Positions 8,471 through 47,952 of a stretch of 64,000 nt of DNA are shown here, piece by piece; position 1 is the stretch's first letter; the number at the start of each line of letters is the position of its first letter. A model generated the notes under the pieces. The model had not been told where the DNA came from. It searched no databases and worked only from the letters and a program-made list of their open reading frames with translations. A program made the translations under genes and the position numbers. The stretch lies in contig JAKSVU010000003.1 of the NCBI GenBank assembly GCA_024413465.1, forward strand, positions 62,001 to 126,000, in the 5' to 3' direction. Origin of the DNA: Alphaproteobacteria bacterium. Its GTDB lineage: Bacteria > Pseudomonadota > Alphaproteobacteria > CAAGCB01 > CAG-977.

Positions 8471-8475
8471 TATCC

Positions 8476-9177
8476 TTATTCCTTAACGTAGAGATTCCAA
8501 CGGTTGTTTAGTGTTGTTCCTTTTCCTAGATAACGGCGGGAAGCGATTTCTTTGTGGCAAAAATCAAAGAATTTATCTGACAATTTTAAATCCGATTGGT
8601 GCTTTTCCAATAGATAGCCTGCCTTTTGATACAGAAATGCTTTGCCGTATAAGGGTAGATATCGCTGTAATTTTTCTTCATCCAATGATGGAATTATATC
8701 TAGACAGGCTTCTAATTCTTCTAAACCACAAATCTTTTCAACAGCATCAATACAGTCTAGAATGGAGCGTTCTAAGTCCGTTACACGCACGCCGTTTTGT
8801 TCTGAAACGCCTTCGGAAATGCTGGTAAAAATTTGATGATACGAAACATCGTCAAAGTCGAACGGCTTGACTTTGCTTTGACTAACAAACGTCATATCAT
8901 AAAAGACCTGATTGGCATATCCGTAAAACTCCAAAGCAGCATGATGTGAAACACATGCTGTCGGGGAAATACAGGATGCGATTTCAAATTTGTTCTTAGT
9001 AGGCTGATGTGTTTCCAAGCTGACAGAAACGTATAAATCTTTTCTGACACGGCGGATCAATCCTTGCTTCAAGGCATCATCTAAATATTTGGAGGCATTC
9101 TTGTTCCAAAGAGCTTCGGCTTGTTTTCTGCCAAAGCATCCTAATGCTAAAAGTTTTTTATAAGAGTCTAAATTCAT
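8476..9177 (-). CDS. AbiEi-type antitoxin / transcriptional regulator
   Basis: This protein of about 233 residues has an N-terminal winged-helix region (LLALGCFGRKQAEALW...DDALKQGLIRRVRKDLYV) and the AbiEi antitoxin core (SCISPTACVSHHAALEFYG, VTDLERSILDCIDAV). AbiEi proteins repress their own operon and neutralise the AbiEii toxin encoded next. I chose the AUG at 9177 because the longer frame from 9213 begins with a low-complexity leader and lacks a ribosome-binding site, whereas GAGA lies about 10 nt before 9177. It is the first gene of the pair, as in other abiE operons. Confidence 0.8.
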   Translation of the reverse strand: MNLDSYKKLLALGCFGRKQAEALWNKNASKYLDDALKQGLIRRVRKDLYVSVSLETHQPTKNKFEIASCISPTACVSHHAALEFYGYANQVFYDMTFVSQSKVKPFDFDDVSYHQIFTSISEGVSEQNGVRVTDLERSILDCIDAVEKICGLEELEACLDIIPSLDEEKLQRYLPLYGKAFLYQKAGYLLEKHQSDLKLSDKFFDFCHKEIASRRYLGKGTTLNNRWNLYVKE

Positions 9178-9213
9178 TTTAATTTTTTCTCGATATATGT
9201 ATATATATAACAT

Positions 9214-12776: not shown

Positions 12777-15257
12777 ATGGCTGGAACTGAAGCTGAAGCA
12801 CGAATTAAAATTAATAAAATGCTAGAAGAAGCCGGATGGCGATTGTGTGATGATACTAATGGTAAGAAAAATGTTGATTTAGAAACTGCTACATTAGTAA
12901 GGCGAAACGAACAAGAACGTAAAGGTGCAATAGATTATCTTTTGTTAGATAGTCATAATTTTCCTTTATGTGTTTTAGAAGCTAAAAAAGAAAGTATTAA
13001 TCCGTTAATGGCTAAAGACCAAGCAAGAGCATATGCTGAAGCACAAGGAATACGTTTTGTAATTTTATCAAATAGTCAAATACACTATCTTTGGGATATT
13101 AAAAGTGGAAATCCTCAAGTTATAACATCTATGCCAACACAAGAATCTCTTGAAAATAAGAAAGAATTTAAGCCTAATCCCCAAAATTTATCTTCTGTTG
13201 ATATCATTCCTGAATATGTAGCTCTTTTGAAAAATCCTCATTTATTGGCTGAGCCTCAATATCAAGACAAAGAAAAAAGAAGTACTTTTTGTTGGGATAA
13301 TGGTTATCGCATTTTAAGATCATATCAAATAGATGCAGTTAAAGCAGTTCAAAAATCAGCAACTACTGGACAAGATAGATTTTTATTAGAGATGGCTACT
13401 GGTTTAGGAAAAACCCTGACAGCTGGAGCTTTGATTCATTTATTTTTGTCGACAGAAAATGCACATCGTGTTTTGTTTTTAGTCGATAGACTTGAATTAG
13501 AAAATCAAGCGAAAAAGAATTTTGATTCATATTTAAATGCATATACTTCAGTTATTTACAAACAAAATAAAACTGACTGGAAAAAGGCACAAATTGTTAT
13601 TACAACAATTCAGAGTTTATTAGTTGATAATAAATACAAGAAACTATTTTCGCCAACAGATTTTGATCTTTTAATATCCGATGAAGCACACAGATGCATA
13701 GGTGGAAACTCTCGTTCTGTTTTCGAGTATTTTATTGGCTATAAATTAGGATTAACTGCAACACCAAAAGATTATATTAAAAATATTGATATTGATAAAC
13801 TTAAAGAACAAGATCCAAAATCATTAGAAAGACGAATTTTACTAGATACATATAAAACATTTGGATGTGAAAGTGGTGAACCAACATTTAGATATTCACT
13901 GCTTGATGGTGTAAAAGGAGGATATTTAATTAATCCTGTTATTGTAGATGCCAGAACAGAAGTAACTACCGATTTATTATCAGAAAAAGGATATGCTGTT
14001 GTTACAACCAATGAAAATGGCGATGAAATTTCAGAATCAATGTATCAAAAAGATTTTGAGAAGAAGTTTTTTTCAGATAGAACAAATGTAGTATTTTGCA
14101 AAACTTTTATGGAAAATGCATTAAAAGATCCTATTTCTGGAGAAATTGGAAAGAGTTTAATATTTTGTGTTAGTCAGAACCACTGTGCTAAAATCACACA
14201 GATATTAAATGAAATTGCTGATAAGATGTATCCAGGAAAATATAATTCTGAATTTGCTGCACAAATAACATCCAATGTTATAGATGCGCAACAATCAACA
14301 ATTGATTTTTCAAATGATAAATTAAATGGTCGTAGTCGTTTTATGGAAGGATATGAAACCAGCAAAACTAGAGTTTGTGTTACTGTAGGGATGATGACTA
14401 CTGGATATGATTGTTCTGATATTTTAAATATTGCTTTAATGCGCCCGGTATTTTCACCAACTGATTTTGTTCAGATTAAAGGGCGAGGCACAAGAAAACA
14501 TACATTCAAATACATAGATGAAAACAAACAAATCATCTCTGTTGAAAAAGAACAATTTAAATTTTTTGATTTCTTTGCTAATTGTCAATATTTTGATGAA
14601 GAATTTAATTATGATGAAGAATTAAAACTTCCCGCTTTAGGATATAAAAACGCAGGCAATGGCGGAGGCGGCATTCCTATTGATGAGATTATTGTAGATG
14701 TGCCAGATATTATTAAAACAATGGACGTTAAAGCTGTTGGTTCAGATGGAATGCGCATTGACAGAGAGTTTTTCCAAAAAACAGAAGAAACTATTAAATC
14801 TGATGTAGATATTAAAACTGCAGTTGATAATGAAAATTGGGATAGAGCAATTGCACTTGTTAAAGAAAAATATGAAAATCAGCCTGATTTATATATGAAT
14901 TTGGAAAAAATTAAAAAATCACAAAATCTTGACCGTAGGATTACTTGGAGAGAGGTTTTAGAAAAGGTATTTGGTTTTATTGATACTTTCAAAAATAAAG
15001 ATGATTTATTAGAAGATGAATGCGATACCTTTATTTCTATTTATAAACCTGAGCCGGAAGTTGTTCCTTTTATTAAGAATTTTATAAAAGCGTATACGGT
15101 AGATGGGCATTTTAGAGAGATAATTGATACAAAAACATTTCCTCAACTTAATTTTTATCCTGGATTTTCCGTAGAAGATTATAAAAATCTTAATGATTAT
15201 AAGAATATATTACCAACATATATTAAGGAAAATATTAACTTAAATACGTATATGTAA
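12777..15257 (+). CDS. hsdR: Type I restriction endonuclease subunit R
   Basis: This 826-residue protein is the motor and nuclease subunit of a type I restriction system, which cuts incoming DNA not methylated at the recognition site. The N-terminal nuclease has D53 (AIDYLLL) and E68-x-K70 (VLEAKK). The SF2 translocase follows with Walker A MATGLGKT (about 206-213), DEAH box (about 302-305), LGLTATP, and late motifs TTGYDCSD and QIKGRGTRKH. A C-terminal helical region from about residue 650 probably docks to the methylase. It is followed 13 bp later by the fused methylase/specificity gene. This is the main defence cargo of the prophage. Confidence 0.93.
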   Translation: MAGTEAEARIKINKMLEEAGWRLCDDTNGKKNVDLETATLVRRNEQERKGAIDYLLLDSHNFPLCVLEAKKESINPLMAKDQARAYAEAQGIRFVILSNSQIHYLWDIKSGNPQVITSMPTQESLENKKEFKPNPQNLSSVDIIPEYVALLKNPHLLAEPQYQDKEKRSTFCWDNGYRILRSYQIDAVKAVQKSATTGQDRFLLEMATGLGKTLTAGALIHLFLSTENAHRVLFLVDRLELENQAKKNFDSYLNAYTSVIYKQNKTDWKKAQIVITTIQSLLVDNKYKKLFSPTDFDLLISDEAHRCIGGNSRSVFEYFIGYKLGLTATPKDYIKNIDIDKLKEQDPKSLERRILLDTYKTFGCESGEPTFRYSLLDGVKGGYLINPVIVDARTEVTTDLLSEKGYAVVTTNENGDEISESMYQKDFEKKFFSDRTNVVFCKTFMENALKDPISGEIGKSLIFCVSQNHCAKITQILNEIADKMYPGKYNSEFAAQITSNVIDAQQSTIDFSNDKLNGRSRFMEGYETSKTRVCVTVGMMTTGYDCSDILNIALMRPVFSPTDFVQIKGRGTRKHTFKYIDENKQIISVEKEQFKFFDFFANCQYFDEEFNYDEELKLPALGYKNAGNGGGGIPIDEIIVDVPDIIKTMDVKAVGSDGMRIDREFFQKTEETIKSDVDIKTAVDNENWDRAIALVKEKYENQPDLYMNLEKIKKSQNLDRRITWREVLEKVFGFIDTFKNKDDLLEDECDTFISIYKPEPEVVPFIKNFIKAYTVDGHFREIIDTKTFPQLNFYPGFSVEDYKNLNDYKNILPTYIKENINLNTYM

Positions 15258-15270
15258 AAGGAAATTCAAT

Positions 15271-17706
15271 ATGTTAGATAAATCTACAAAGACAATTATT
15301 AATAATGCTAGGGATGTTTTAGTTGGAAAAGTTCCTAATCCGCAAAGCCAAGTAGATTTAATAACCATAGCCATGATTTACAAATTTATGGATGATATGG
15401 ATATGCAAAATATTGAATTAGGTGGTAATAGAGTATTTTTTACTGACGATTTAGAGACCTATGCCTGGCGTAATCTTCTTGCTGCAAAATATAATAATTG
15501 GGACAGATTATCGTTATACTCTGAAGCATTAGATAAATTGCAAATTGCTAAACAAATTCCAGAGCTATTCAGAAAAATATTTAAAGGTGCTTTTTTGCCT
15601 TTTAGGGATGGAGCAACTCTAACATTGTTTTTAAAGGAAATTGATCAATTAACGTATGACAATTCAGAAAATTTAGGAAATGCATTTGAATATTTGCTTT
15701 CTGTTATGGGGTCTCAGGGTGATGCCGGGCAATTCAGAACACCGAGACATATTATAGATTTTATCGTAGAAGTTGTAAATCCTAGCAAAACAGACACAAT
15801 TTTGGATCCAGCTTGTGGAACTGCAGGTTTCTTAATATCTGCATATAAACATATATTGGCAAAAGCAAAAGAAACAAACACTCCATTAACACCAGAGCAA
15901 ATGAAAAAGCTTACAGGAAACATTGTAGGATATGATATTTCACCAGATATGGTTAAACTTGCTTCTGTAAATTTATTTTTACATCAATTTGCACAACCTA
16001 AAATATATGAATATGATACATTGACATCAGAAGAACGGTGGTCAGATAAATTTGATGTCATCCTTGCCAACCCACCATTTATGACACCAAAAGGAGGTAT
16101 TCAGCCACATAGTAAGTTTGGGGTAAAAGCCAATCGCGCCGAAGTTTTGTTTGTTGATTATATGATGGAACATCTAAATATTAGAGGTAAAGCCGGTTTT
16201 GTTGTGCCTGAAGGAATTATATTCCAATCAGCAACAGCTTATAAATCGTTGCGTAAAATGATGATTGAAGATGATTATCTTTATGCAGTTGTGAGTTTAC
16301 CTAGTGGCGTATTTAATCCATATTCAGGCGTTAAAACATCTATTTTATTTTTTGATAGAGAACTTGCTAAACAAACTAAAGACATTTTGTTTATAAAGAT
16401 TGATAATGATGGTTATGATTTAGGTGCTCAACGTCGTCAGATTAAAGATAATGATTTACCGGAAGCTATTGAACTTTTGAAATTGTGGCAAAAATCTATT
16501 ACTTCCGGCACAATAGATGAAAAAATAAGCAAATCTAAACGGGTTACTATTGTTTCTAAAGAAAAATTAGCTGAAGATGGAGAATATAACCTTTCAGCTT
16601 CTCGCTACCAAGAAACGCAAGATTTTTCTAACTGCCAGTACGATATGGTAAAACTGATAGAACAATTGGAAAATGTTAAATATACCAACAAGATTCAAAA
16701 ATCGGAATTTCTTGAAAAAGGCTTATATCCTATTGTTGATCAATCAGAGGACTACATAGCAGGATATTGGAATAATCCAGAAGATATTTTTAAAGTAACA
16801 AAACCTGTTGTTATATTTGGTGATCATACGAGAAATATTAAATATGTGGATTTTGATTTTGTTTTGGGAGCTGATGGAGTAAAGATATTATTACCAAATG
16901 ACAAGTGGAATACTAGGTTTTTCTATTATTTATTAAAATCAATAGATATCAGAAATTTAGGGTATTCTCGCCATTTTAAAGAACTAAAGGATAAAGAAAT
17001 CCCTTTACCTCCAATATCGGTTCAAGAAGAGATTGTTAAGGAATTAGATGCTTACCAAGCTATTATAGAGGGCGCTCAAAAAGTCGTAGATAACTGGAAA
17101 CCCACTTTCAAAATCAACCCGAATTGGGAAAAAGTAAAATTGGACGATATATTTATTGAAATTAAAAATGGAAAAAATGTGGAACAATTAGACTCAGATG
17201 GGAAATATAAAGTTAGCAGAATTCAGACTATTTCTGATGGGACTGTTAATTTATCAAAAGTTAAATATACAAATGATGATGTTTCCGAAAAAGATTTTTT
17301 TCAAAAAGGAGATATTTTACTTAGCCATATAAACAGTTTTGAACATTTAGCAAAATCAGCCATTTTTAATTATGATGAGAAAGTTGTACATGGGGTAAAT
17401 CTTATTAGATTTTCGCCAGATAAAACCAAAATTGTTCCAGAATATATGGCGTATTACTTCAAAAAGAACGAATTTATAGATAAAGCAAGAAGTTTTGCGC
17501 AACGAGCTGTTAATCAAGCAAGTATAAAGACAAGTGATCTCAAAAACATTGAAGTATATATACCATCACTTGAAGAACAAAAGGTAATTGTGGCTCAAAT
17601 AGAACAAGAAGAACAATATGTTGAAGCCTGCAAGAAGTTGATAGAACTGAATAAACAAAAAATCTCCAACAAAATCAAATCCATCTGGAACTGTGATGAG
17701 GACTAA
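15271..17706 (+). CDS. hsdM: Fused type I methylase-specificity protein (HsdM-HsdS)
   Basis: This 811-residue protein joins the N6-adenine methylase and the DNA-recognition subunit. The methylase part has an HsdM N-terminal helical domain, the AdoMet motif DPACGTAGF (about 179-187) and the catalytic NPPF (267-270). After about residue 440 two specificity half-domains follow, each a target recognition domain plus a conserved helix: the first ends in IPLPPISVQEEIVKELDAYQ, the second in IEVYIPSLEEQKVIVAQIEQ. Two recognition domains imply a bipartite target. In the usual organisation M and S are separate genes, so the fusion is notable. A ribosome-binding site AAAGGAAA lies before the AUG. Confidence 0.92.
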   Translation: MLDKSTKTIINNARDVLVGKVPNPQSQVDLITIAMIYKFMDDMDMQNIELGGNRVFFTDDLETYAWRNLLAAKYNNWDRLSLYSEALDKLQIAKQIPELFRKIFKGAFLPFRDGATLTLFLKEIDQLTYDNSENLGNAFEYLLSVMGSQGDAGQFRTPRHIIDFIVEVVNPSKTDTILDPACGTAGFLISAYKHILAKAKETNTPLTPEQMKKLTGNIVGYDISPDMVKLASVNLFLHQFAQPKIYEYDTLTSEERWSDKFDVILANPPFMTPKGGIQPHSKFGVKANRAEVLFVDYMMEHLNIRGKAGFVVPEGIIFQSATAYKSLRKMMIEDDYLYAVVSLPSGVFNPYSGVKTSILFFDRELAKQTKDILFIKIDNDGYDLGAQRRQIKDNDLPEAIELLKLWQKSITSGTIDEKISKSKRVTIVSKEKLAEDGEYNLSASRYQETQDFSNCQYDMVKLIEQLENVKYTNKIQKSEFLEKGLYPIVDQSEDYIAGYWNNPEDIFKVTKPVVIFGDHTRNIKYVDFDFVLGADGVKILLPNDKWNTRFFYYLLKSIDIRNLGYSRHFKELKDKEIPLPPISVQEEIVKELDAYQAIIEGAQKVVDNWKPTFKINPNWEKVKLDDIFIEIKNGKNVEQLDSDGKYKVSRIQTISDGTVNLSKVKYTNDDVSEKDFFQKGDILLSHINSFEHLAKSAIFNYDEKVVHGVNLIRFSPDKTKIVPEYMAYYFKKNEFIDKARSFAQRAVNQASIKTSDLKNIEVYIPSLEEQKVIVAQIEQEEQYVEACKKLIELNKQKISNKIKSIWNCDED

Positions 17707-32539: not shown

Positions 32540-34140
32540 GAGTGAGTGCAGGTACTTTTCAAAAAACACCAATTATCAAAAAGCCGGATTATACTGAAGC
32601 AAACAGAATGAATGAAACCGCAAAAGGTTTGTCTGCAGCAGTCAACGTCCTTGATGATCTTGTCCAGAAAAATCAGCAATTAAAAGCAAGTGCAGATATG
32701 GCACAAGTCCAAAAAGAAATGAGTTCCTGGATTGATGATGAATACAACAAAGGAAATTATGCAGGGCTTCCTGATCGTTTTAATCAAGAACTTGATAAAA
32801 GAATATCATCACTTAGAGGACAAGGTGGTTATTACACTGAGACTATTGATAATCATAAAGATATTTTAAAAGCACAACTTTATGACAAAGTCAGTAACAC
32901 TGTTGTCAATGGAATGATGATTGAGAATAAGGAAAATGCTCAAAAATTGATTGATGGGACATTGTCATATATCCGTGAAAACAGATCTGAACTGGAAAAC
33001 AAAACAGCAGAATTGGAAACAACGCTAAAACAAAAGTACTATATGTCTCCTGCAGATCGTTCTAAGACAATCGAGGAAATGAAACAACAACTTGCTTTGA
33101 CAGTTATTGATGAAGATCTAAGAAGTGATCCTGCTGTTGCCGTCAAAGATATTCGAAATGGAAGATATAATGGTTATCTTAATGCTATTCAACAAAATAC
33201 GTATTTATCAAAAGCTGAAAAATTATCTCAGCAAAAATCAAGTATTGACACTTATGCAATGCTTTATTCTCAATTTAAAAACGATGACGGAAGTTTCAAT
33301 TATACTGATGCTGTTCAATTTTTAAGAAAACCAGAAAACCAAGAAAAACTCGGTTTAACAGGTGATAGTGCTAACAAGGTTGCAGATATGCTCTATTCAC
33401 AATTTAACCAAGACAACGAAATGAGAGAAAAGAACAGATCAGTTGCTGCAACAACTGAATTGGATAATGCGTGGGATTTGTTTTTTAATGGAAATTCTGC
33501 AGAAGCAATCAATCTTATTGCAAATTCAGAAAACATCAAAGGCGAAACTAAAAACGCTATGATCGAACGAATGAAAAATAATACAGCTCAAACAGGACTT
33601 GAAACACAAAACTTAATGCAACAAATTGCCAAACGAGAAATAAACTCTGATGAGGAAATTTTGGATCTTTTGGCACAAAATAAGATTTCTTATGAAACCG
33701 CGAACAGAGGTAGAGAATTGCTAAAAAATAGAGATGCAAAAGCTCACGCTTTGTTGGATAACGGAATTGAACAAATCAATAAAGTTTTTGGAACCGGTTT
33801 AATGGGGAAATTAACACCTCTTGAAGCAGCACAGAAACAAAAAGCAATTGGAACGTTGACGGATCTTTACAATGAAATGATTAAATCTGGAGCGACTTAT
33901 CAGGATATGCAAAAAGTTTTCACGCCAGAAAATATTGAAAAAGTTCGTCAACAAAACGCCGTTGAAATGAAAGACGCGATCAACTCTAAAATTGAAACGA
34001 TTAAATATCAGAAAAATTCTGCAAATACAACGGCCGTTGAAGAATTGCAGAATATACCAAATCAAATCAGATTAAGACGTCTTGCTCAAAGAAAAGCAGG
34101 AGAAAGCATTGATGATTATTTAAAAAGGACAGAAAAATAA
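32536..34140 (+). CDS. Internal virion protein (gp15-like)
   Basis: This 534-residue protein is almost wholly helical and charged, with coiled-coil-like stretches (about 35-65, 130-175 and 420-500). It lies between the gp14-like and the giant polyvalent protein, as gp15 does in T7-like phages, where it joins the ejected core that forms a periplasmic tube. No catalytic motif was seen. Overlap of one base with the next gene (TAATGG) suggests coupling. Confidence 0.65.
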   Translation: MRVSAGTFQKTPIIKKPDYTEANRMNETAKGLSAAVNVLDDLVQKNQQLKASADMAQVQKEMSSWIDDEYNKGNYAGLPDRFNQELDKRISSLRGQGGYYTETIDNHKDILKAQLYDKVSNTVVNGMMIENKENAQKLIDGTLSYIRENRSELENKTAELETTLKQKYYMSPADRSKTIEEMKQQLALTVIDEDLRSDPAVAVKDIRNGRYNGYLNAIQQNTYLSKAEKLSQQKSSIDTYAMLYSQFKNDDGSFNYTDAVQFLRKPENQEKLGLTGDSANKVADMLYSQFNQDNEMREKNRSVAATTELDNAWDLFFNGNSAEAINLIANSENIKGETKNAMIERMKNNTAQTGLETQNLMQQIAKREINSDEEILDLLAQNKISYETANRGRELLKNRDAKAHALLDNGIEQINKVFGTGLMGKLTPLEAAQKQKAIGTLTDLYNEMIKSGATYQDMQKVFTPENIEKVRQQNAVEMKDAINSKIETIKYQKNSANTTAVEELQNIPNQIRLRRLAQRKAGESIDDYLKRTEK

Positions 34141-37100
34141 TGGAATACCAAGATTTAATTGAAGCTGGATTTTCAGAAGACGAAGTCAAAAATTATTATC
34201 AAGAAAAATTATCAAATGCCGGATTTACAAATACAGAAATAAATCAATATATTTATGAAAAAAGCGGAAAAGAATTAAAATCTTTGGAAGGTGATGAGCA
34301 AAGTGAAAGTGTTAAGAACGTTGCTCAAGAAGTTGCTGACGTTTCTTTTAAACGCGCTGTTGAACTAGGTTGGCAAAAATCTGTTACAGGAATGGTTGCA
34401 AGGCAAAAACTTCCTGATGAATTATCTGAAGCAGAACAAAAAGGAATGTCTATTTGGGACAAAGCTGTTTCCGGTGCAACTACTGCGCTTGCAGATATTC
34501 CAGTTTATTTGATGAATGCTAAGGTTGGATCTGCTACAGGTGCTGCAACTGGTTTTCTTGTTGGTGGTCCTGGTGGTGCTGCAATTGGAGCAGGTATTGG
34601 TGGAGCAGCAGGTGCTTTCGGGATAACAGACGCTATGCGTCAAGCTTTGATTGATGGTTATACGAAAGGCGAAGTTAAGACACCTGCTGAATTTTTAGAG
34701 CGAGTGCAAAATCAAGCTGTCGCTTTTGTAAAAGGTTCTACAGTTGGAGTTGCATTAAAAGGAATTTCTCCTGTCGCCAAAAATGCAGAGGAATTTATTG
34801 CATCCACTTTTAAAAATTCTTTTGGTAAATATGTTTCAAAAACAGTTCCTTTTTTAGCAGAGACAGGAACGTTGACTGCGGTTGGTTCTGGTGTTGAAGG
34901 TCAAATCCCATCTGCATCAGATTTTGCTGAAACAGCTCTTGTTATAGGAGCAAATAAATTTTTTGGTTTTATTCCAAGTGAAGTAAGTAAAAAACTTTCT
35001 GACGAACAGTTGAATAATAACGTCAAGATTTTTGAAAAAAAATTGATGGATCATTATGCCAAAACAGGAGAACATCCATACGACGTTCTGAAACAAGCAG
35101 AAGAAAATCCTGCGATTTTAGATAAATTATTTGCAGAAGAAAAACCAAGTAAATTTGAAATAAAAATTCTAAACTTAACAGAACATTTTAAACATTTTGA
35201 AGGAATGGATAGATATCAAATAAAAACTGAAATTGAAAAGGAATTGAACAAAATAATAGATTTAGAAATAAAAACAGGAACAAATCCTTTTCTTGTCAAA
35301 ATTACAGAAGAAAACAAACCTCATGTAATTAGATCAAATGTTAATTTACATGGTAATCAAAATAGAAGACATAAAGCCGCTTTGAGTATAATTGAAAGAA
35401 TTATTGAAAATTCTGAATATGTAGATAAAGGTGAAAACGAGAGAGTGGATTTATCCCATAATGTAAATCCTGATACATTAAAACATAAAGAAAATGTTGA
35501 GCTTTATAAATATTTTCACACTAAAATAAAGATTGGAAATGAAAATTATATAGTTGAGTTAGCAACTGAAAAAATGAAAAAAGGAAGTGAAAACGTATTT
35601 AATCTTTATAATGTTAAATTATTTAGGGATAACCTGCACAATCTAACAGACGTTATCCCTAATGATAGGATTACACAAAAAAATAATCCTGTCAATAATG
35701 AAAGTTACCAGACAGATCAAAAAATGCCTGAAAACAAAAATTCTCAGGTTGCTCCAGAAGGTGAGGTTCGGGCTTCTGATGCTGTTAAAATTTCAACTGC
35801 TTTTAAAAACATGGCTGAAAAAATAAAAGTTCCTGTCCGTTATGGTAAAATAAAAGGTACTTCAAATGTTTTGGGGCAGTATTATCCAGATAAAGAAATG
35901 ATTAGAGTTCGTTATGCTAACGATATTGAAACACTTTCTCATGAAGTTGGACATCATTTAGAAAAAATAATGTTCGGTGATATTGGTGCAGAACAAACAA
36001 AAAGTTTCCAGAGTGAACTTGAAAAAATTGCGACAAAAACAAATATGCGTGACAAAGAAAGAGGAAATAGAGCAGAAGGTTTTGCAGAATTTATATCATG
36101 GTTTGTTGCAAATCCTCAAAAGGCAAAAGAACTCTGTCCAAAGTTTTACGAGTATTTTGACGACAGAATGAAATTCGAGATGCCGGAACAATATGATTTG
36201 CTTATGGAAACAAGGGATACAATTACAAAATACGTCGAACAACCTGACGTTATGAAGGTTCTATCTAAAATTTCCGTTGGAGAAAAAGAACAAAAAGCTC
36301 CAATCGATTTTAAAGAAAAGCTTATTCAAAACTTTTATGATGACATTTATCCTTTGAAAAAAATAACAGAGGATTTGGGGATTGATCCATTTTCTCATCA
36401 AAGTCCTTATTTGCAAGCAAGGATGTTGCGCGGAGGAATTGAAGCTAAGGCATCTTATGGATTAAAAGAAGATCAGATCGGTTATGACGGGCAAGTTGTC
36501 GGTCCTTCTTTGGCAAAAATATTGGAACCTGTTAAAGGATCTCTTTTATCTAAAGGAAAATTAAACAAAGATACTTTGCGTGCATATATGGTTTCGAGAA
36601 GGGCATTAGAAAAAGAAGTTCAGGGAATTAAAACAGGAATTGATATTAAAGCCGCAATGAATACCGTTAAAGAATACAACGATCAATATAAAGACATTGC
36701 AAATGCTTTGGCTGAATTTGCTAAAAATGATCTAAAGTTGCTTGTCGATAGCGGTCTTTTGTCGAAAGAAAGTTACAACAACATAACTGCAAAAAACGAA
36801 TTTTATGTTCCAATGAATAGAGTTATGGATATTGATATTGAAGGTGGAATTGGTGGTAAGCGATTAAAACCATCAAATCCAATCAAAAAAATGAAAGGAT
36901 CAACGAGAGATATTATTGATCCGCTAGAAAGTATTATAAGAAATCACATAAACATTGTTGCTCAAGCTGAACGAAATCGTGTCGCTAAATCAATTGCAGA
37001 TTTATCGAAAATAAAAGGTTCCGGTAAATACGTTTTTGAAGTTAAAAAAAATAGCGAAATGATAAAAATTCCAAACGGAATGGATTTGTATAAAGAAGAT

Positions 37101-38903
37101 GCTTTTGGAAATTTTGAGCAAGTAAATGATTTTTGGATCCAGACTGACAAAGTAAACGATAAAACACAGATGATTGCGTATAAAGATGGAAAAGCTAAAG
37201 TTTATGAGATTACTCTAGAAATTGCAGCAATCGTTACAAATATGTCTGGTAAAGGCGCAACTATTCTTTCAAAGGTTTTAGGCGCTCCTGCTCAAAGTTT
37301 AAGACTTGGAGCGACTGCTTGGAATAGTACGTTTGCGTTTAAAAACTTTATTCGTGATACACAACTTGCTTTATTGACAACAAAAGGCGGTTATAAACCT
37401 TGGAAGGATATTATTCCAAACGTAATTTCAATGATAAAGAACGATGAATATTACAAAGCGTATAAACGCTCTGGAGCTTCAATGATTACTTTTGTCAATA
37501 CAAACCGAAACGTTTTGCAAGGGACTTTGGATGACCTTTTGTCAACTGGGTATTTTGATGACATTAGAAACTGCATTGATACGAAAGATTACGTCAAACT
37601 CGTTCAAAAAGGGGTTCTTAATCCAGTTATTAACGGATTGTCATGGATGGGCGATAAATCTGAAACACTTACGCGTTTTGGTGAATTTAAAGCGTCTATG
37701 AAAGGAAAAGAATTTACCTACGAAAATATAGAAAAAGCAGGATTTAACGCTCGAGAAATTACATTAGATTTTGCAAAAGGTGGAACTACTGTTAAAGCAA
37801 TAAACACCTATGCTGCATTTTTTAATGCGAATGTTTTGGGAACAGTTAAAGCAATAAATGCTATTAAAGAAAATCCTGTCAGAGCTGTTCGCATCATGGG
37901 GACGCTTGGTGTTATTGGAGCTTTGGCTAATTGGGATTTTGATAAATGGGACGTTAAGGATGAAATTAAAGAAACTTTAGAAGTTGTCAGAAATACAAAC
38001 TACACATTGTCATTGCCTTATCGAGATAAAGAAACAGGTATTGAAGACAGATACGTTTTGCGCATACCAAAAGCACAGCAGATCGGTTGGATTGCGACTG
38101 CTGCTGAAAATATAACTTACGCAGGGCTTGCAAAATTAAATGGAAAAGATAGAGATGATTTTATTTTAAGTCTTGCAAAAGCAGGGTTTGACGAATTTAA
38201 TATAGTTCCAAATATTAACTTCGCTCAAATGCCTTTTGAATTGATGGCAAATTATTCTAGTTATACAGGTCGCCCAATTGTCCCTGCGAGCATGGAAGGG
38301 ATACTTCCTGAATATCAATATAAAGATGATACGAGTGAAATTAGTAAATTTACTTCAAAGACGCTTGCAAATATTTTTGGAGATGGGAATTCTGTTTCAC
38401 CGATCAAAATTGATTATGCTGTTCGTGGTTGGACAGGCGGTTTTGGACAAGGTGTTTTGAAGTTTGCAGATAAAGTCGGACAAGCAATTGGTTTGTTTGA
38501 AGCTGACAAAATTGAAAAAAAATTAGATAATTCTGCATTTTTTAGAGCTTTTGTATCTCGTGTTCCTTCTGCAAACTCTGAAAGTATAAATAAGTTTTTT
38601 GAAAATGCAAAAAGAGCAAAAGAAAAAGTTAAAACATTCAAGTATCAATTAAAAAGAATGGATCTTGGAGTTGTAGAACAAAAAGATTATTGGCTTGCTT
38701 TTGAGGGTTTTGAAAAAATTGAAAGTGCTATCAATGAATTGTCTGGCGTTGCTGCACAAGTTGAAATGAGTGAAGCTTCTAAAAATGAAAAGCGTAGAAA
38801 TCTGGATCAAATATATTATTCAATGATTGAACTTTCGCGAGAAGCAAACGATGCTTATAAAAAGATGGAAGCTATTTCAAAACAAATGAAAAAGAAAAAA
38901 TAA
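34140..38903 (+). CDS. Giant polyvalent internal virion protein with zincin domain (gp16-like)
   Basis: This 1587-residue protein is probably ejected with the DNA. N-terminal helical part, then a Gly/Ala-rich hydrophobic segment (about 120-165). An LPD3-like domain may cover about 340-500 (NRRHKAALSIIERII and YIVELATEKMK). A zincin metallopeptidase motif HEVGHH lies at 601-606. From about 770 to 1010 the segment resembles LPD38 (MVSRRALEKEVQGI, NEFYVPMNRVMD), a domain of polyvalent phage proteins. The C-terminus is coiled. It follows the gp14/gp15-like genes, so it takes the place of the T7 core lysozyme gp16, with a peptidase instead of a lytic transglycosylase. Domain boundaries are rough. 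Confidence 0.75.
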   Translation: MEYQDLIEAGFSEDEVKNYYQEKLSNAGFTNTEINQYIYEKSGKELKSLEGDEQSESVKNVAQEVADVSFKRAVELGWQKSVTGMVARQKLPDELSEAEQKGMSIWDKAVSGATTALADIPVYLMNAKVGSATGAATGFLVGGPGGAAIGAGIGGAAGAFGITDAMRQALIDGYTKGEVKTPAEFLERVQNQAVAFVKGSTVGVALKGISPVAKNAEEFIASTFKNSFGKYVSKTVPFLAETGTLTAVGSGVEGQIPSASDFAETALVIGANKFFGFIPSEVSKKLSDEQLNNNVKIFEKKLMDHYAKTGEHPYDVLKQAEENPAILDKLFAEEKPSKFEIKILNLTEHFKHFEGMDRYQIKTEIEKELNKIIDLEIKTGTNPFLVKITEENKPHVIRSNVNLHGNQNRRHKAALSIIERIIENSEYVDKGENERVDLSHNVNPDTLKHKENVELYKYFHTKIKIGNENYIVELATEKMKKGSENVFNLYNVKLFRDNLHNLTDVIPNDRITQKNNPVNNESYQTDQKMPENKNSQVAPEGEVRASDAVKISTAFKNMAEKIKVPVRYGKIKGTSNVLGQYYPDKEMIRVRYANDIETLSHEVGHHLEKIMFGDIGAEQTKSFQSELEKIATKTNMRDKERGNRAEGFAEFISWFVANPQKAKELCPKFYEYFDDRMKFEMPEQYDLLMETRDTITKYVEQPDVMKVLSKISVGEKEQKAPIDFKEKLIQNFYDDIYPLKKITEDLGIDPFSHQSPYLQARMLRGGIEAKASYGLKEDQIGYDGQVVGPSLAKILEPVKGSLLSKGKLNKDTLRAYMVSRRALEKEVQGIKTGIDIKAAMNTVKEYNDQYKDIANALAEFAKNDLKLLVDSGLLSKESYNNITAKNEFYVPMNRVMDIDIEGGIGGKRLKPSNPIKKMKGSTRDIIDPLESIIRNHINIVAQAERNRVAKSIADLSKIKGSGKYVFEVKKNSEMIKIPNGMDLYKEDAFGNFEQVNDFWIQTDKVNDKTQMIAYKDGKAKVYEITLEIAAIVTNMSGKGATILSKVLGAPAQSLRLGATAWNSTFAFKNFIRDTQLALLTTKGGYKPWKDIIPNVISMIKNDEYYKAYKRSGASMITFVNTNRNVLQGTLDDLLSTGYFDDIRNCIDTKDYVKLVQKGVLNPVINGLSWMGDKSETLTRFGEFKASMKGKEFTYENIEKAGFNAREITLDFAKGGTTVKAINTYAAFFNANVLGTVKAINAIKENPVRAVRIMGTLGVIGALANWDFDKWDVKDEIKETLEVVRNTNYTLSLPYRDKETGIEDRYVLRIPKAQQIGWIATAAENITYAGLAKLNGKDRDDFILSLAKAGFDEFNIVPNINFAQMPFELMANYSSYTGRPIVPASMEGILPEYQYKDDTSEISKFTSKTLANIFGDGNSVSPIKIDYAVRGWTGGFGQGVLKFADKVGQAIGLFEADKIEKKLDNSAFFRAFVSRVPSANSESINKFFENAKRAKEKVKTFKYQLKRMDLGVVEQKDYWLAFEGFEKIESAINELSGVAAQVEMSEASKNEKRRNLDQIYYSMIELSREANDAYKKMEAISKQMKKKK

Positions 38904-39571: not shown

Positions 39572-41520
39572 TGGCTGTCGTTAGTTGTATTAAATATCTG
39601 AACGGTGGTTTATTTTCTGACTTTTTGAAAGCCAGAGACGAATATAATTCCTCATGCAGACAGCTTAAAAATTTCATTCCTAGCGTTCAAGGTCCTATTG
39701 TAAGGAGAGGTGGAACAAAATATCTTGGAGATTGTACAGGCGCTGTTCGTTTAGAGGAATTCGTTTTTGATCCAGAACAAAAGTACCTTTTGGTTTTTTA
39801 TACAACAAAAATTGATATTCTTTACAATGATGCTTTATTTCAAAGTGTTCCAATTTCTTATTCTGAAGATGATATTCCGAACTTGTATATTACACAGGTT
39901 CAAGACGTTATGTATATTGCTCACGCAAACTATCCTTTGAAACAACTTGTTAGATCTGCAAGTGGTGGTGTTGTTACTTTTTCAATTACAGACGTTCAAA
40001 TGATAAACGGTCCTTACATGAATGAAAATATCACAGCAACAACGTTTACTTTTAATTCAAATCAAGTCACTTCAAGCACGTCTTTATTTACCGCAAACGA
40101 CGTTGGTCGTTGGATACACATGGAAGTTGTTGAAAGTGGAACAATTAAATCTTGGGATTGTAAAATATCTACGTTTACAAGTGATACAAAAGTAAGCGTT
40201 ACAGATGTTACCGGAACAACGTCAACTGCTGCGACTAAATTGTGGAGAATGTCTCCTTTTTCTGCAAGTAACGGCTATCCTGAAGCTGTTTGTTTGCATC
40301 AAGAGCGTTTATTTTTAGCAAAGAGTGGTTCTGTTTATGCCGGACAGCAGTCAGCAGGGACAGATTTTCGAATTAAAAAAGAAGACGGAACAGTCCTTGA
40401 TACTCACGGTTTTTCTTGCGATTTATCGAATGAAAAGTCTGGTGAAATATATTGGTTAAATTCTGCCGGAGGAATGTTATTAGTTGGATGTATGAACCAA
40501 ATAAATGCTGTTACTTCAAATGCTATGGGATATGCAATCACACCTTCAAATAAGAAAGCAATTAAGGCCTTTGAATATGGAACATGCTCAACAAAAGCAA
40601 TCGCTGTTGACGATAACGCTATTTTTGTTGATATTTTTCGCAGAACAATTCAAGGAATTAAGTACTCAACTGTTTATGAGGAATTTTCAAAAGACAGTTT
40701 AACGGCTTTTAATGAAGACATTACACTCGGAAAGATAAAGGAAATAGCTTATCAATCTCGCAAAATACCTATTTTATGGTGCGTTAAAAAAAGCGGTCAA
40801 GTTATCGGTTGTACGATATCAATGAAGGATAAGGTTGTTGCTTGGTTCGAAAATGATTTTGGAGGAAAAGTCATTAGTATTGCAACAATGCCAAATCTTG
40901 ATGAAGAACGTGACGATGTTTATTTTTTGGTAGAAAGAGAAATTAACGGAGATACTAAAACATATCTTGAAGGATTGACTTCTGGATTGCGAGATGGTGA
41001 AGTATCAGCAGAAAATGCTTTTTTTGTTGATTGTGGTTTTGAGTTAGATAGTCCGACAGAAGTAAAACAAATTACAGGATTAGATCATTTAGAAGGAAAG
41101 TCTGTCAAGGTTCTTGCAGATGGTGCTGTACATCCAGATAGAGTTGTTGAAAATGGAACGATTGATTTACAGTTCGGCGCAAAACACATCATTGTTGGAA
41201 TTGGATATGAAAGTATATTACAGCCAGCAACGATCATTCCTGCTGAAGGAACAGAACGATCAGAAAAACATATTTCTGGAATAGAATTAATGCTGCAAAA
41301 AACACTTGGCGGAAAAGTCGGTGTTGCAAACAATATGAAAATTATGCCAATGCGTTTTGCAAATATGGATATGGATAAAGCGGTTGGTTTATTTACAGGC
41401 AATTATAAAGTTGCAAGTGGTGGTGTGTGGTCCAAAGACGCAGACGTTGTTATTATTCAGGACGAACCATTGCCTATGACAGTTCAAGCAATATATCTAA
41501 CTATGGAGGTAGCAAGATGA
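39571..41520 (+). CDS. Tail tubular protein B (gp12-like nozzle)
   Basis: This 649-residue protein corresponds to the T7 gp12 nozzle. Its N-terminus carries the typical LNGGLFSDFLKARDEY and LKNFIPSVQGPIVRRGG, shared by podovirus nozzle proteins of the gut-phage type; the remainder is beta-rich. GGGGG precedes the AUG at 39571. It overlaps the start of the tail-fibre gene by 4 bp (ATGA), showing coupled expression of the tail. Confidence 0.85.
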   Translation: MAVVSCIKYLNGGLFSDFLKARDEYNSSCRQLKNFIPSVQGPIVRRGGTKYLGDCTGAVRLEEFVFDPEQKYLLVFYTTKIDILYNDALFQSVPISYSEDDIPNLYITQVQDVMYIAHANYPLKQLVRSASGGVVTFSITDVQMINGPYMNENITATTFTFNSNQVTSSTSLFTANDVGRWIHMEVVESGTIKSWDCKISTFTSDTKVSVTDVTGTTSTAATKLWRMSPFSASNGYPEAVCLHQERLFLAKSGSVYAGQQSAGTDFRIKKEDGTVLDTHGFSCDLSNEKSGEIYWLNSAGGMLLVGCMNQINAVTSNAMGYAITPSNKKAIKAFEYGTCSTKAIAVDDNAIFVDIFRRTIQGIKYSTVYEEFSKDSLTAFNEDITLGKIKEIAYQSRKIPILWCVKKSGQVIGCTISMKDKVVAWFENDFGGKVISIATMPNLDEERDDVYFLVEREINGDTKTYLEGLTSGLRDGEVSAENAFFVDCGFELDSPTEVKQITGLDHLEGKSVKVLADGAVHPDRVVENGTIDLQFGAKHIIVGIGYESILQPATIIPAEGTERSEKHISGIELMLQKTLGGKVGVANNMKIMPMRFANMDMDKAVGLFTGNYKVASGGVWSKDADVVIIQDEPLPMTVQAIYLTMEVAR

Positions 41521-44222
41521 CGATTTCAACGTCAACGAATAAAATAGAAGTGGTTTGTTCCGGCGAAACAAAAACTTTTAATTTCCCTTATTATTTTTTG
41601 GAACAAACAGATTTAAAAGTTTATATCAAAGTTGGTGATAATCCAAAACAACTTTTAACAAAAGATGTCGATTATAGTATTAGTGGAACTCCTGAAGATC
41701 CTGCAAGCCTTCGTGTGTATAAAAACGGAGCAGATGTTATTTTAACAAATTTCCCAACCGCAGGAACTCAATTAATCGTTATACGTAACGTTGAATTTAC
41801 TCAATTAACAGATTATGTGGAAAATGATAAGTTTCCTGCAGAGCTTCACGAACAGGCATTAGATAAATTGACAATGCTTTTGCAGCAATTGAAGGAAACG
41901 TTAGACAGAGCTGTTGCTGTTGATATTTTTTCAGATGTATCTCCAGAACAATTAGTTGAAGCCGTTGAACGTGTTTATAGATCAATAGACAATATTGATA
42001 TTAATGCAAATAACATCGAAAGCATAAATACAAATGCTGACATTGAGGCAGAAATACAAGATACAGCATCAATCAAAAACGAAATTGTTGTTTTATCAGA
42101 AATAAAAACAAAAATTGAAAATCTATCAGACCATTCTGAAGAATTAGAAGCAATTTATAACAATATTTCTGAAATTTTAGAAGCTGTTGGTATAAAAGAA
42201 GATATTGTTAAGGTTTCCGGAATAAAAGAAAAAGTTTCTGCCGTTGCTGATAATGAAGATAATATCAATGCGGTTTCTAACGATCTTGAAAGTATTAAGG
42301 ATTGCGCGGAAGATCTTGATAATATCAATGCTGCTCCAAGTGCTGCTTCTAGTGCGCAAGACAGTAAAAACAAATCTTTTATTTGGGCAGAAGGAACAGA
42401 CGAGCAAGTCCAAGGTTTAGGTGGTGAACATTCTGCTAAAGGTTGGGCTGCGCAAGCACAATCTGTTTTACCAGATCAAACAAATCACGAAGGTGACACG
42501 CTTGTGACAGATGGAACCTTGGCTAGTTGGAGCAGGCCTGCTGTTAGCTTTTATAATGTCTCTATTAAATACAAACAAAACGATGTTGTTTTGACTGCTG
42601 ATAGTACAGGACTTTCTATGTATAGATCACTGCAAAACGATAATATAGGTCATGGTTTAGATGAAGCAAATTTTTGGAAAAAAGAGGATTTAGGGGGTGT
42701 TGGTATGGAACCATCTCATATTATAAATAGTTCAATAAAAGTTGTTGGTAATACTGTTAAGCTAAAATGGACAGATCCTGCTGACACTTTCAATAAAAAT
42801 GGACAATTGATGTGTTCTTGGAAAGGAACTCGTGTTGTTAAAAAACAAGGAAGTTATCCAAAAGACGAATGGGATGGAACTCTTGTTGTTGACGAGACTG
42901 TCAGAAATACATATCAAAACACTGAATACGAAGATACACAGGAAAATGCAGATCAGTGGTGTTATAAAGCTTTTCCGTATTCTGCACACGATGTGTATTG
43001 TCGTCACTCACGGAATAATTTTGGCGTTTATATCTTTGCTTATTGTTGGGATATGAATAATCCAGATCCAAATACTTGCATTACATATCCAGAGGATGCA
43101 GATAATGCAAATTTTGAAAAAGCTTATCAAAACTGGACGACTGATATTTTCACTTACGGCGGTTGGAAAAATGCTCCGTTCTTCCCAAAAGCTTGCGCAT
43201 TAAGTCCAGATGGAACAGTTGCTTACTATTTAGATCCAAATGATTATACTAAAAAAGCAGATGGAAGTGCATCTGATGTTTTAACAGCAGCGTCTCAACA
43301 TGATTACAACTTTATGATGGAATGGGACACGATTTATCGTAAGAAGTACACGGATGGGGCAAAGGTTTATTGCTATTTTTCAAATAAAAAATTAGATGAT
43401 AGTTATGAATGTTGGAGTACAAAACTTGCTGACGGAAGTTATGCAGATCATTTTTACACAAGTATATTCCAATGCGCTCTAGTCAGCTCAAAACTTCGCT
43501 CAATTTGTTGTACAACTACAACAACAACTGTACCTCCAAATCAAATGACTGCTTATGCGACAACAGGCGGTGCTGCAAATGAAAGAAATTACGCATCAGC
43601 AAACGGCGTTGGTTGGGATATCGGATGCGCATCAGACAGTGATTTAATCATAGATCTGTTCCTTTTAATGTTTAAAAACACAAACTCTCAAGCTGTTTTA
43701 GGAACTTCTCCATCATCTACAACTGCGTTAACATTGCATAATGGACGTTGTTTAAAAGACGGTCTATTCCATGGTAGAAATGGCGCTCATAACGCTATGT
43801 TTGGTATGGAAAATTGGTTCTCTCACAGATGGAACAGGGAAGTTGGTGTTATCAATAAGAACGGCACATATTTCGTTAAACACACTTATTCAACGATAGA
43901 TGGATCAACTGCAGAAGGATACAATCTTGACGGAACTGGTTATAAAAACACAGGGATTTCAGTGCCTGCTGCATCGCAATCGTACATTGTAAGTGAAGAA
44001 GTGTATGACGGAAGTTTCTTGCCTAAGTCTGTAACTGGTGGTTCTGCAACAACATACACTTGTGATGGAATGTGGTCGAACAACGGACAGATTGACGTTC
44101 TTCTCCGTGGCGGTGATGTGGACGGCGGTACTCTTGCCGGTGTTCTTTGCTTCTACGTTGCCGACCTTGCTTCTATCTCGTACTGGGCCGTCGGCGCGTC
44201 GCTTTCGTATCACTCGAGATAG
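41517..44222 (+). CDS. Tail fibre / receptor-binding protein, DGR target
   Basis: This 901-residue protein should be the tail fibre that binds the host. The N-terminus (about 1-135) resembles the T7 gp17 virion-binding domain (FNFPYYFLEQTDLKVYI, then AELHEQALDKLTMLLQQL). Heptad-like coiled coil covers about 150-280. A large C-terminal region ends in a C-type-lectin-like variable tip: residues 861-896 (RGGDVDGG, LCFYVADLAS, SYWAVGAS) are encoded by the VR. GGAGGT at 41505-41510 supports the AUG at 41517. Compared with its template, 13 residues differ, mostly asparagine changed to D, G, Y, A, I or V. The lectin fold is inferred from the family of DGR targets. Confidence 0.88.
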   Translation: MTISTSTNKIEVVCSGETKTFNFPYYFLEQTDLKVYIKVGDNPKQLLTKDVDYSISGTPEDPASLRVYKNGADVILTNFPTAGTQLIVIRNVEFTQLTDYVENDKFPAELHEQALDKLTMLLQQLKETLDRAVAVDIFSDVSPEQLVEAVERVYRSIDNIDINANNIESINTNADIEAEIQDTASIKNEIVVLSEIKTKIENLSDHSEELEAIYNNISEILEAVGIKEDIVKVSGIKEKVSAVADNEDNINAVSNDLESIKDCAEDLDNINAAPSAASSAQDSKNKSFIWAEGTDEQVQGLGGEHSAKGWAAQAQSVLPDQTNHEGDTLVTDGTLASWSRPAVSFYNVSIKYKQNDVVLTADSTGLSMYRSLQNDNIGHGLDEANFWKKEDLGGVGMEPSHIINSSIKVVGNTVKLKWTDPADTFNKNGQLMCSWKGTRVVKKQGSYPKDEWDGTLVVDETVRNTYQNTEYEDTQENADQWCYKAFPYSAHDVYCRHSRNNFGVYIFAYCWDMNNPDPNTCITYPEDADNANFEKAYQNWTTDIFTYGGWKNAPFFPKACALSPDGTVAYYLDPNDYTKKADGSASDVLTAASQHDYNFMMEWDTIYRKKYTDGAKVYCYFSNKKLDDSYECWSTKLADGSYADHFYTSIFQCALVSSKLRSICCTTTTTTVPPNQMTAYATTGGAANERNYASANGVGWDIGCASDSDLIIDLFLLMFKNTNSQAVLGTSPSSTTALTLHNGRCLKDGLFHGRNGAHNAMFGMENWFSHRWNREVGVINKNGTYFVKHTYSTIDGSTAEGYNLDGTGYKNTGISVPAASQSYIVSEEVYDGSFLPKSVTGGSATTYTCDGMWSNNGQIDVLLRGGDVDGGTLAGVLCFYVADLASISYWAVGASLSYHSR
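44097..44206 (+). repeat. DGR variable repeat (VR)
   Basis: These 110 bases at the 3' end of the fibre gene align without gaps to the TR at 44399-44508. There are 20 substitutions, all at positions where the template has A (20 of its 27 adenines). No G, C or T of the template differs. The 3' end is the GC-rich CGGCGCGTCGC, the likely initiation-of-homology (IMH) segment, after which the sequences diverge. Thirteen codons change in meaning and two changes are silent. Confidence 0.97.
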
Positions 44223-44228
44223 GGTTTT

Positions 44229-44250
44229 AAAGGGGAATACCTTCCCCTTT
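44229..44250 (+). terminator. Hairpin just after the VR (DGR hairpin or terminator)
   Basis: A 9-bp perfect stem (AAAGGGGAA, loop TACC, TTCCCCTTT) starts 22 bp after the end of the VR and 6 bp after the fibre stop codon. DGR targets often have such a hairpin/cruciform downstream of the IMH that promotes retrohoming. It could also end transcription, though only four Ts follow. Confidence 0.7.
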
Positions 44251-44398
44251 TGCATCAACAATGTAATCTGTATGATGTTAAAAAAAATGTAGTTCGATGA
44301 AACTTGGCTTAGTCGAATGAGGATTACAGAAAAAAGGGATTACCAGAGCGAAAGCTCGTGTCCGATTGGAAAATAGAAGCACGACTTAAAATCGTGGG

Positions 44399-44508
44399 GT
44401 TCTTATCCGTGGCGGTAATGTGAACAACGGTACTATTGCCGGTGTACTTTGCTTCAACGTTAACAACCTAGCTTCTAACTCGAACTGGAACAACGGCGCG
44501 TCGCAATC
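44399..44508 (+). ncRNA. DGR template repeat (TR), part of the template RNA
   Basis: This is the donor copy for mutagenic retrohoming, 302 bp after the VR and 118 bp before the RT start. In the VR frame it encodes ten asparagines (AAC/AAT codons), the codons that give the widest range when adenines are replaced. Hairpins just upstream (GAGC-GAAA-GCTC at 44346-44357 and CACGA/TCGTG at 44380-44396) and downstream (TTATGG/CCATAA at 44553-44578) suggest a structured RNA that reaches into the RT gene. Limits of the RNA are unknown. Confidence 0.93.
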
Positions 44509-44626
44509 CATTGCGTTTTATACGTTTCTTCAAAGCTCTGGTTTTTCCTTGCTTATGGATAGCAAAAATTCGCCATAACGAGATACTGTGAGTAACATAG
44601 TTGAAAGTGGTATAGGCATTGGAAAG

Positions 44627-45697
44627 ATGAAAAGATACGGATTTCTTTTTGAGAAAATTGTAGATTTAGAAAATATCAAAAAAGCTATATTGAGAGCTGC
44701 TAGAGGTAAAAGAAAAAAGCACTCTGTTCAAGTAGCTCTTGAAGATATTGATAAAACAGCAATTCAAATCCAAAGTTGGCTCGTTAGCGGAGAATGGCAA
44801 CCTCCTCGTTATCATAAAGCAAAAATTATAAATGATGGAATTCAATTAAAAAAACGTATCATTGTTTGCCCTGAGTTTGTCAGAGAACAATGTGTCCATC
44901 ATGCAATAATGAATGTCGTTTATCCTCTTTTTCAAAAAAGATTTTACGAACTATCTTGTGGAAGCGTCAGAGGACGAGGAACACATTCTGCACAAAAATG
45001 GATTTCAAAGCAAATCAGGAATAAGAAAAGTATAAAATATTATACAAAACTCGATATTCAAAAATTCTTCCAAAACATACACCCTAGTTTTGTTTTTAAA
45101 GAATTAAGAAAAGTTATAAAAGACAAAAGAGTTTTGATTTTATTTTCGAGGATTTTAAGATCAAACACTGTTAACCAAAATGGAATAAAATATAAACATG
45201 GTATTTTAATTGGTTTTTATACCAGTCCATTTTTTGCAAATGTCATGTTGAACGCTTTGGATCATAAAAGTAAAGAGGAACAGCGAGTAAAATATTACAT
45301 TAGATACATGGATGATATATTAATTCTTGGTTCAAATAAAAGAAAAATAAAAAAATACGTATATTGGGCTAAAGTTTTTTTAAATAAAATCAAACTTTCG
45401 GTCAAAAAAAATCAAATTCACTCTGTAAAAATTTTTGAATTTTTGGGTTATATTTTTAGAAAAGACAAAACAACTTTATCTGAAAAATTATTTTTAAAAA
45501 GCAAACGTTGTTTTAAGAAAATATACAAATACAAGCATCTTTCATTATATCAGAGCAGAAAAGTTCTATCTTATTGCGGTTATTTTAAAAGCTGCAATAT
45601 GACTTACGCTTTTAAAAAATATATTAGTCCGTACGTTTCCGTCGCAGCTTGTAAAAAGATAATTCAACGAAATGATTTAAAAGGAGTTTTACAATGA
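44627..45697 (+). CDS. DGR reverse transcriptase
   Basis: This 356-residue reverse transcriptase copies the TR RNA with errors at adenines. The N-terminus (MKRYGFLFEKIVDLENIKKA) is the usual beginning of DGR RTs, which favours the AUG at 44627 over the GTG at 44588. Palm motifs are visible: first catalytic Asp in KLDIQKFFQNI (D143), motif 4 IGFYTSP (195-201) and YMDD (227-230), then KIFEFLGYIF. It lacks a maturase or nuclease domain, as expected for DGR and unlike group II intron enzymes. Motif 4 has SP where DGR enzymes usually have SQ. It lies after the TR and is followed by a 4-bp overlap with a membrane-protein gene. Confidence 0.95.
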   Translation: MKRYGFLFEKIVDLENIKKAILRAARGKRKKHSVQVALEDIDKTAIQIQSWLVSGEWQPPRYHKAKIINDGIQLKKRIIVCPEFVREQCVHHAIMNVVYPLFQKRFYELSCGSVRGRGTHSAQKWISKQIRNKKSIKYYTKLDIQKFFQNIHPSFVFKELRKVIKDKRVLILFSRILRSNTVNQNGIKYKHGILIGFYTSPFFANVMLNALDHKSKEEQRVKYYIRYMDDILILGSNKRKIKKYVYWAKVFLNKIKLSVKKNQIHSVKIFEFLGYIFRKDKTTLSEKLFLKSKRCFKKIYKYKHLSLYQSRKVLSYCGYFKSCNMTYAFKKYISPYVSVAACKKIIQRNDLKGVLQ

Positions 45698-46227
45698 AAA
45701 AAAGAAGTTTACTTGGTTTTCTTATACTCCCATTTGTTTTTATATGGCGCGCATGGTTTGGAGGAAGTTTTGGATATTGTTGGAGATGGGTTAAGTATCT
45801 TGTAGGCATAGCAATTGTTCTGGCTATGTATTATATAAAAGACATTCTCGATTGGAATAATTGGCGTATGTATGCCGTGTGTATATCGTTTATGATATTT
45901 TGGGCATTATCACATGGTATGTGGTTTAAATATTGGGACCACAGTTCAGACGCCGAGGACAGACACCCCTTATTTGTTAAGTTTGTTATGTGGTTGTGTG
46001 GTGGTCCAGAGCAATCAAGATCGTTCTGGGGAAACTTCATTGGAATGACAGTTCGTTACACATTGACCGCTATTTTAGTTGCTGTTTTAATTCCTAATCT
46101 ATGGTTCTGTTTTGCCGGATTAATTGTTGGTGTTAGTTATATACCTGCAGGATTAGCTCATAATACAAAGATTGGCGAGTACATTGCAGGGCCATGTGTT
46201 TTTACTTTGTTATTTTTTTGCATATAA
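45694..46227 (+). CDS. Phage membrane protein
   Basis: This 177-residue protein has four to five hydrophobic helices (residues about 5-20, 35-55, 60-78, 110-135 and 138-175) with a polar loop (KYWDHSSDAEDRHP) between them. I recognise no family. It overlaps the RT by 4 bp and precedes the lysis genes, so it may be a lysis or superinfection-exclusion membrane protein. This is inference. It does not resemble Avd, the usual DGR accessory, which is soluble and helical. Confidence 0.6.
   Translation: MKKRSLLGFLILPFVFIWRAWFGGSFGYCWRWVKYLVGIAIVLAMYYIKDILDWNNWRMYAVCISFMIFWALSHGMWFKYWDHSSDAEDRHPLFVKFVMWLCGGPEQSRSFWGNFIGMTVRYTLTAILVAVLIPNLWFCFAGLIVGVSYIPAGLAHNTKIGEYIAGPCVFTLLFFCI

Positions 46228-47876: not shown

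Positions 47877-47952
<76 letters not shown>

Follow-up and report, generated by a model that had tools for sequence, protein, structure and literature searches.

The window, the whole stretch of DNA that was analysed, comprises 64,000 nt from an Alphaproteobacteria bacterium (CAAGCB01; CAG-977), taken from the forward strand of contig JAKSVU010000003.1 (62,001-126,000) in assembly GCA_024413465.1; the coordinates below are window positions. The assembly is 2.03 Mb long and 97%-complete. A 42.3-kb prophage occupies 5623-47921, its edges marked by 41-bp direct repeats (5623-5663 and 47881-47921, spacing 42,258 bp) that lie within tRNA-Lys(CTT). An integrase gene (5843-7012) adjoins the left repeat, and terminase, capsid, head-tail connector and tail genes are found between the two. 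Possible defence cargo is present in two places: an AbiEii-type nucleotidyltransferase with a neighbour without identity (7523-9213, reverse strand), and type I restriction-modification genes (12777-17706, forward strand). Within the virion gene block, 34140-38903 encodes a 1587-aa product that matches only PHROGs of unknown function. The same prophage carries a diversity-generating retroelement (DGR), whose fibre gene, repeats, RNA helices and reverse transcriptase (RT), described next, are all on the forward strand; the nearest relatives are in gut Alphaproteobacteria.

The target of the DGR is a tail fibre gene (41517-44222). Its reading frame opens at GTG 41427, homology begins at ATG 41517 (residue 31 of the long ORF), and the stop codon is at 44220-44222. 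In PHROG and PDB, residues 31-164 of the long ORF have matches among the N-terminal parts of phage fibres and to a tailspike (a T7-type fibre anchor), while the C-terminal 400 residues match tail proteins; judged by these matches, the fibre is modular. The C-terminal 412 residues, modelled with AlphaFold (pLDDT 79, with blocks down to 56 near the tip; pTM 0.86), matched the DGR variable protein of Thermus aquaticus, TaqVP, with E 4e-8 and probability 1.00; the next fold matches, to Mtd variants and formylglycine-generating-enzyme folds, were below significance. The domain that carries the variable repeat is accordingly modelled, with lower confidence in parts of the tip, as a predicted fold like that of a DGR variable protein (C-type lectin-type).

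The variable repeat (VR, 44097-44206) is the 3′ end of the fibre gene, and the template repeat (TR, 44399-44508), which has 27 adenines, lies outside any gene. Aligned without gaps over 110 columns, they agree at 90 and differ at 20. Every difference is opposite a template A (20 of the 27 adenines) and none is at the 83 T, C or G positions; the substitutions are A>G in 8 cases, A>T in 8 and A>C in 4. Were 20 mismatches placed at random, all would fall on the 27 adenines with a probability of ~2e-16. The likeness of the repeats ends abruptly on either side, and a search of the 2.03-Mb host assembly with the TR returned itself and one VR only. Relative to the template translation 13 residues of the fibre tip are altered, mostly at AAC (Asn) codons; no adenine change in the mutable codons can make a stop codon, and from these codons we compute ~1.9e14 possible different fibre tips. 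An earlier note on this DNA had placed the gapless repeats here, counted the adenine differences and thirteen changed residues, taken the VR as the fibre 3′ end and seen a YMDD RT after the TR. Realignment, recount and translation comparison returned the same coordinates and values, and the position of the fibre stop and the YMDD-bearing ORF downstream of the TR bear out the remainder.

Beginning 22 bases after the VR is an inverted repeat, AAAGGGGAA/TTCCCCTTT (44229-44250). It is a candidate for a stem-loop of the sort that aids homing in BPP-1 (PMC12875486), or for a terminator; on inspection, similar G-rich/C-rich stems follow the VR in relatives.

The RT gene (44627-45697) encodes the YMDD motif and was identified by homology and by its place in a tree. 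Its start is probably ATG 44627 rather than GTG 44588, because homology begins at MKRYGF. The product matches phrog_1423; among solved structures, 8ub7, which we take to be the BPP-1 DGR enzyme, is its best relative in sequence. Curated models scored below their cut-offs (NCBIfam group II, 114.6 of 300 bits; Drt3a, 52.6 of 200; retron St85, 43.1 of 235), and the PADLOC matches are RT matches that have no curated cut-offs. A tree of 129 RTs, with group II introns as its root (quick search, SH-aLRT support only), puts the window RT among the DGR RTs and apart from those introns. There the window RT forms a 6-row clade with five alphaproteobacterial-type RTs (support 100), nested in a 49-row clade (support 99) that comes mostly from gut phages and prophages of Firmicutes, including Arawn, FP_Epona and LBR48; the BPP-1 RT is in a separate group. 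Comparison with DGR RT profiles had been proposed in the earlier note as a check on the RT, with membership of the DGR clade as the expectation, and both the tree and the best solved relative bear it out. A 177-aa gene (45694-46227), rich in hydrophobic stretches and without library matches, overlaps the RT stop (ATGA).

Domain 4 of DGR RTs typically reads (I/V/L)GxxxSQ, in about 90% of DGRs, and was once proposed as the cause of adenine restriction; SP in this domain has been reported as a rare variant that might be an error (PMC3521204). The window RT lacks SQ and has IGFYTSP, the SP being common to its five nearest relatives and one other locus. Six SP loci have a detectable TR/VR pair (the window, L003, L083, L084, L085 and L086), and there 86/87 mismatches are at adenines, a count in which L084 and L086 are non-independent. 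These repeat comparisons argue that the glutamine of SQ is unneeded for adenine specificity; and as SP-bearing DGRs show adenine exchanges, the motif is no ground for excluding the window RT from the DGRs.

TR and RT gene are 118 bases apart in the window. Almost throughout the clade the spacer here is similar, with UUCC, a 4-5-bp hairpin, AAAAU and a stem-loop with AGUA and GAAA. The corresponding features in the window are a hairpin, TTGCT/AGCAA, with an AAAAT-like sequence after it (44549-44565), and a second stem-loop (ATACT...GGTAT, with the conserved AGTA and GAAA; 44583-44613), both supported by covariation and by the covariance models R1 and R2. Across 26 sequences the two spacer helices have 93.4% of cells paired, against 61.8% when shuffled and at most 45% when slid, and 89 double-sided changes against 29 when shuffled. 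Model R1 picked out 49 clade loci, all where the spacer should be, with no hit at any other site below E = 0.8, and a covariance model made without the alphaproteobacterial-type sequences also recovers the window (42.9 bits, E 1.3e-6). An Rfam search of the locus gave no match, and this family is absent from Rfam.

The strand ending in UUCC pairs with a GGGA... strand upstream of the TR, and the template is therefore closed by a helix, P1, whose 5′ strand (GGGATTACCAGAGC, 44336-44349) and 3′ strand in the spacer (GCTCTGGTTTTTCC, 44535-44548) are supported by pairing and covariation. When partners were swapped between loci, the own partner beat all swapped ones in 14/22 loci, the window included; most of the other eight are from one group with nearly the same sequence. 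In 18 hand-registered loci, leaving out four alphaproteobacterial-type loci with bulged helices, 88.9% of P1 cells are paired, compared with at most 77% in 1000 row shuffles. The window P1 is present in the minimum free energy fold, the overall fold being not unusually stable (global z-score -0.69, an uninformative value). A swap test of the TR 3′ end against the spacer end had the own partner best in 1/21 loci, the window itself, and we propose no priming duplex there. P1 may be a general DGR feature, because P1-like pairs are visible by eye in several Avd-bearing DGRs; a free duplex scan of such DGRs, with the own partner best in 2/23, was too noisy to score. On these alignments the marker of the clade is the form of the spacer.

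No Avd was found in the window, searched over its whole length in six frames with an HMM of 47 Avds. The same HMM found Avd in 0/60 loci within the clade and in 98/104 outside it. For most loci the searched sequence reached no farther than about 6 kb from the RT, and the 60 are the tree members plus a small number of near-identical or partial loci that were included for their similarity. Pfam bAvd had no match in the 97%-complete host assembly and matched 4/4 control records. Avd is essential in BPP-1 (PMC12875486), and F. prausnitzii phages, FP_Epona among them, have been noted before to lack it (PMC5883640). What appears new here, from the sequences compared, is that the absence follows one clade cleanly; the clade itself may have been described earlier. 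The same DGR architecture recurs in over 100 loci. With its RT in the clade, no Avd and the shared spacer RNA, the window element belongs to an Avd-less gut-phage DGR clade, for which doing without Avd is, on this survey, normal; the Avd of a BPP-1-type DGR is absent. The earlier note's "complete" DGR thus stands as a DGR, by its repeats, RT tree and target fold, and does not stand as complete in the BPP-1 sense.

Some members of the clade have several templates. In Bacilli-type gut prophages (L005/L006:4583-5864, L087:5305-5871, L088:4893-5864 and L090:332-741), several TR-like units lie between the VR and the RT, each with its own P1 5′ strand (GGGAYTTGRTGTGT), and share one spacer. The VRs of L005, L006 and L087 match a unit not adjoining the spacer, with 10/10, 8/8 and 11/11 mismatches at A, and that of L088 is a chimera of two units, either half differing only at adenines. 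A Bdellovibrionaceae genome (L121:7096-8909) has six TR-like copies in a row after a DGR RT.

Evidence on activity comes from relatives. No second copy of the window phage was found; its RT is absent from 11 other genomes of the genus, family and order, and a search with the fibre gave no viral contigs, in collections from some of which near-identical records are possibly missing. Among clade members and other DGRs with identical or near-identical TRs, many template adenines are sites of VR difference and other positions hardly ever are. A near relative (L084/L086) has two 13,077-bp copies on a single contig, with 11 differing bases between them, every one in the VR and 10 at TR adenines; whether the copies are separate prophages or variants of a phage that the assembly has joined, the variation is confined to the VR. 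The adenine-specific mutagenic retrohoming read from the repeats in the earlier note is supported by near-identical relatives, whose VR variation is almost confined to adenines, the window phage itself being a single copy. Because no second isolate of this phage was found, we infer the activity of the window DGR from its relatives and from its intact parts, and consider it probably active.

A DGR now dead in this prophage, its VR a fossil of past mutagenesis, would agree with the single genome, in which there is no direct sign of current activity, and with the unusual motif in RT domain 4. However, the RT is open with YMDD, the fibre gene is open, the RNA helices are intact and not one non-adenine TR/VR mismatch has accumulated; SP also occurs in relatives whose VR varies. 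We consider a dead element improbable. We give somewhat more room to a DGR whose substitute for Avd is an accessory protein that has escaped recognition, such as the product of a phage gene adjoining the RT, though on balance we doubt it. The essential role of Avd in BPP-1 (PMC12875486) points that way, as does the small protein suggested in its stead for the Avd-less F. prausnitzii phages (PMC5883640), and in many clade members a small gene starts at the RT 3′ end; in the window the 177-aa gene overlaps the RT stop. Yet what follows the RT varies from subgroup to subgroup, the window and the clade at large have no small gene family in common near the RT, and the 177-aa protein is without a library match. 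The repeats might instead have arisen by chance or by ordinary duplication next to an unrelated RT (from a group II intron, a retron or a defence system), with no DGR involved. In favour of this reading, general RT profiles, the group II intron model among them, do match, all under cut-off. Against it are the adenine pattern, too improbable by chance, the grouping of the RT with DGRs, the match of the target to a solved DGR variable protein and the recurrence of the architecture; its probability is negligible, and the RT tree and recurrent TR/VR architecture rule it out.

We are highly confident that the element is a prophage-borne DGR of the Avd-less type working broadly as follows, an ordinary DGR in the sense of a known kind of system, from its Avd-less branch. 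That it is aimed at the prophage tail fibre, as first claimed, agrees with the RT tree, the predicted target fold and the VR variation in relatives. RNA over the TR and its flanks would fold, the 5′ flank pairing with the spacer across the template, as the covariation supports. By homology to BPP-1, the RT would bind this RNA and, once cDNA synthesis was primed, copy the TR and misincorporate opposite adenines. The TR/VR patterns here and in relatives suggest that the mutated cDNA then replaces the VR at the fibre 3′ end by homing, leaving the TR unchanged, and the outcome, by homology and predicted fold, would be phages with different fibre tips and presumably different receptor binding, hence an effect on receptor choice. 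No Avd would be involved, and we propose that the RNA fold and the RT of the clade probably do its job. Our judgement is evenly divided on a broader proposition, that this is a monophyletic DGR lineage with Avd-free adenine-mutagenic retrohoming, carried out by the RT and a template-clasping covarying RNA, and with the SQ glutamine dispensable in the alphaproteobacterial branch.

Nowhere in prokaryotes is programmed, targeted hypermutation seen more clearly than in DGRs, whose prototype depends on Avd. Because a large gut-phage lineage without Avd shares a compact, structure-conserving RNA, the role of Avd and its replacement become directly testable in a two-component system of RNA and RT. 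The SP motif of the alphaproteobacterial branch is a natural test of the published hypothesis on adenine specificity.

Compared with known systems, the element resembles that of BPP-1 (mtd, TR, avd, brt; NC_005357) in having a receptor-binding gene with the VR at its 3′ end, a YMDD RT after the TR, a C-type lectin target and TR/VR mismatches at adenines only (19/19 in BPP-1). It differs in that BPP-1 has Avd between VR and TR and an RT of another group, 25% identical to that of the window, and is not found by spacer model R1. The Faecalibacterium phage FP_Epona (MG711462) shares the RT clade, the lack of Avd (PMC5883640), a homologous target C-terminus and adenine mismatches (13/13), whereas its RT is 30% identical with an SQ motif, its host is of the Firmicutes and its spacer is missed by R1. 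Butyrivibrio phage Arawn (NC_048848) is of the same clade, with 31% identity in the C-terminal half of the fibre and a related spacer RNA, its RT being 35% identical and having SQ. Its TR/VR pair (L165:4492-6146) is 111 bp long, 9/9 mismatches falling at A, and the VR gene carries a tail-protein annotation; the RT was suggested to be a prophage-immunity gene and not described as part of a DGR (PMC7372960). Closest are the gut alphaproteobacterial loci L083, L084/L086 and L085 and the viral contigs L003 and L004, which make up the 6-row clade with the window. These have RTs 46-50% identical to its own, the SP motif, no Avd and, where the locus sequence includes the VR gene, homologous fibres, but they are from different phages, with a bulged P1 in several and other genes after the RT.
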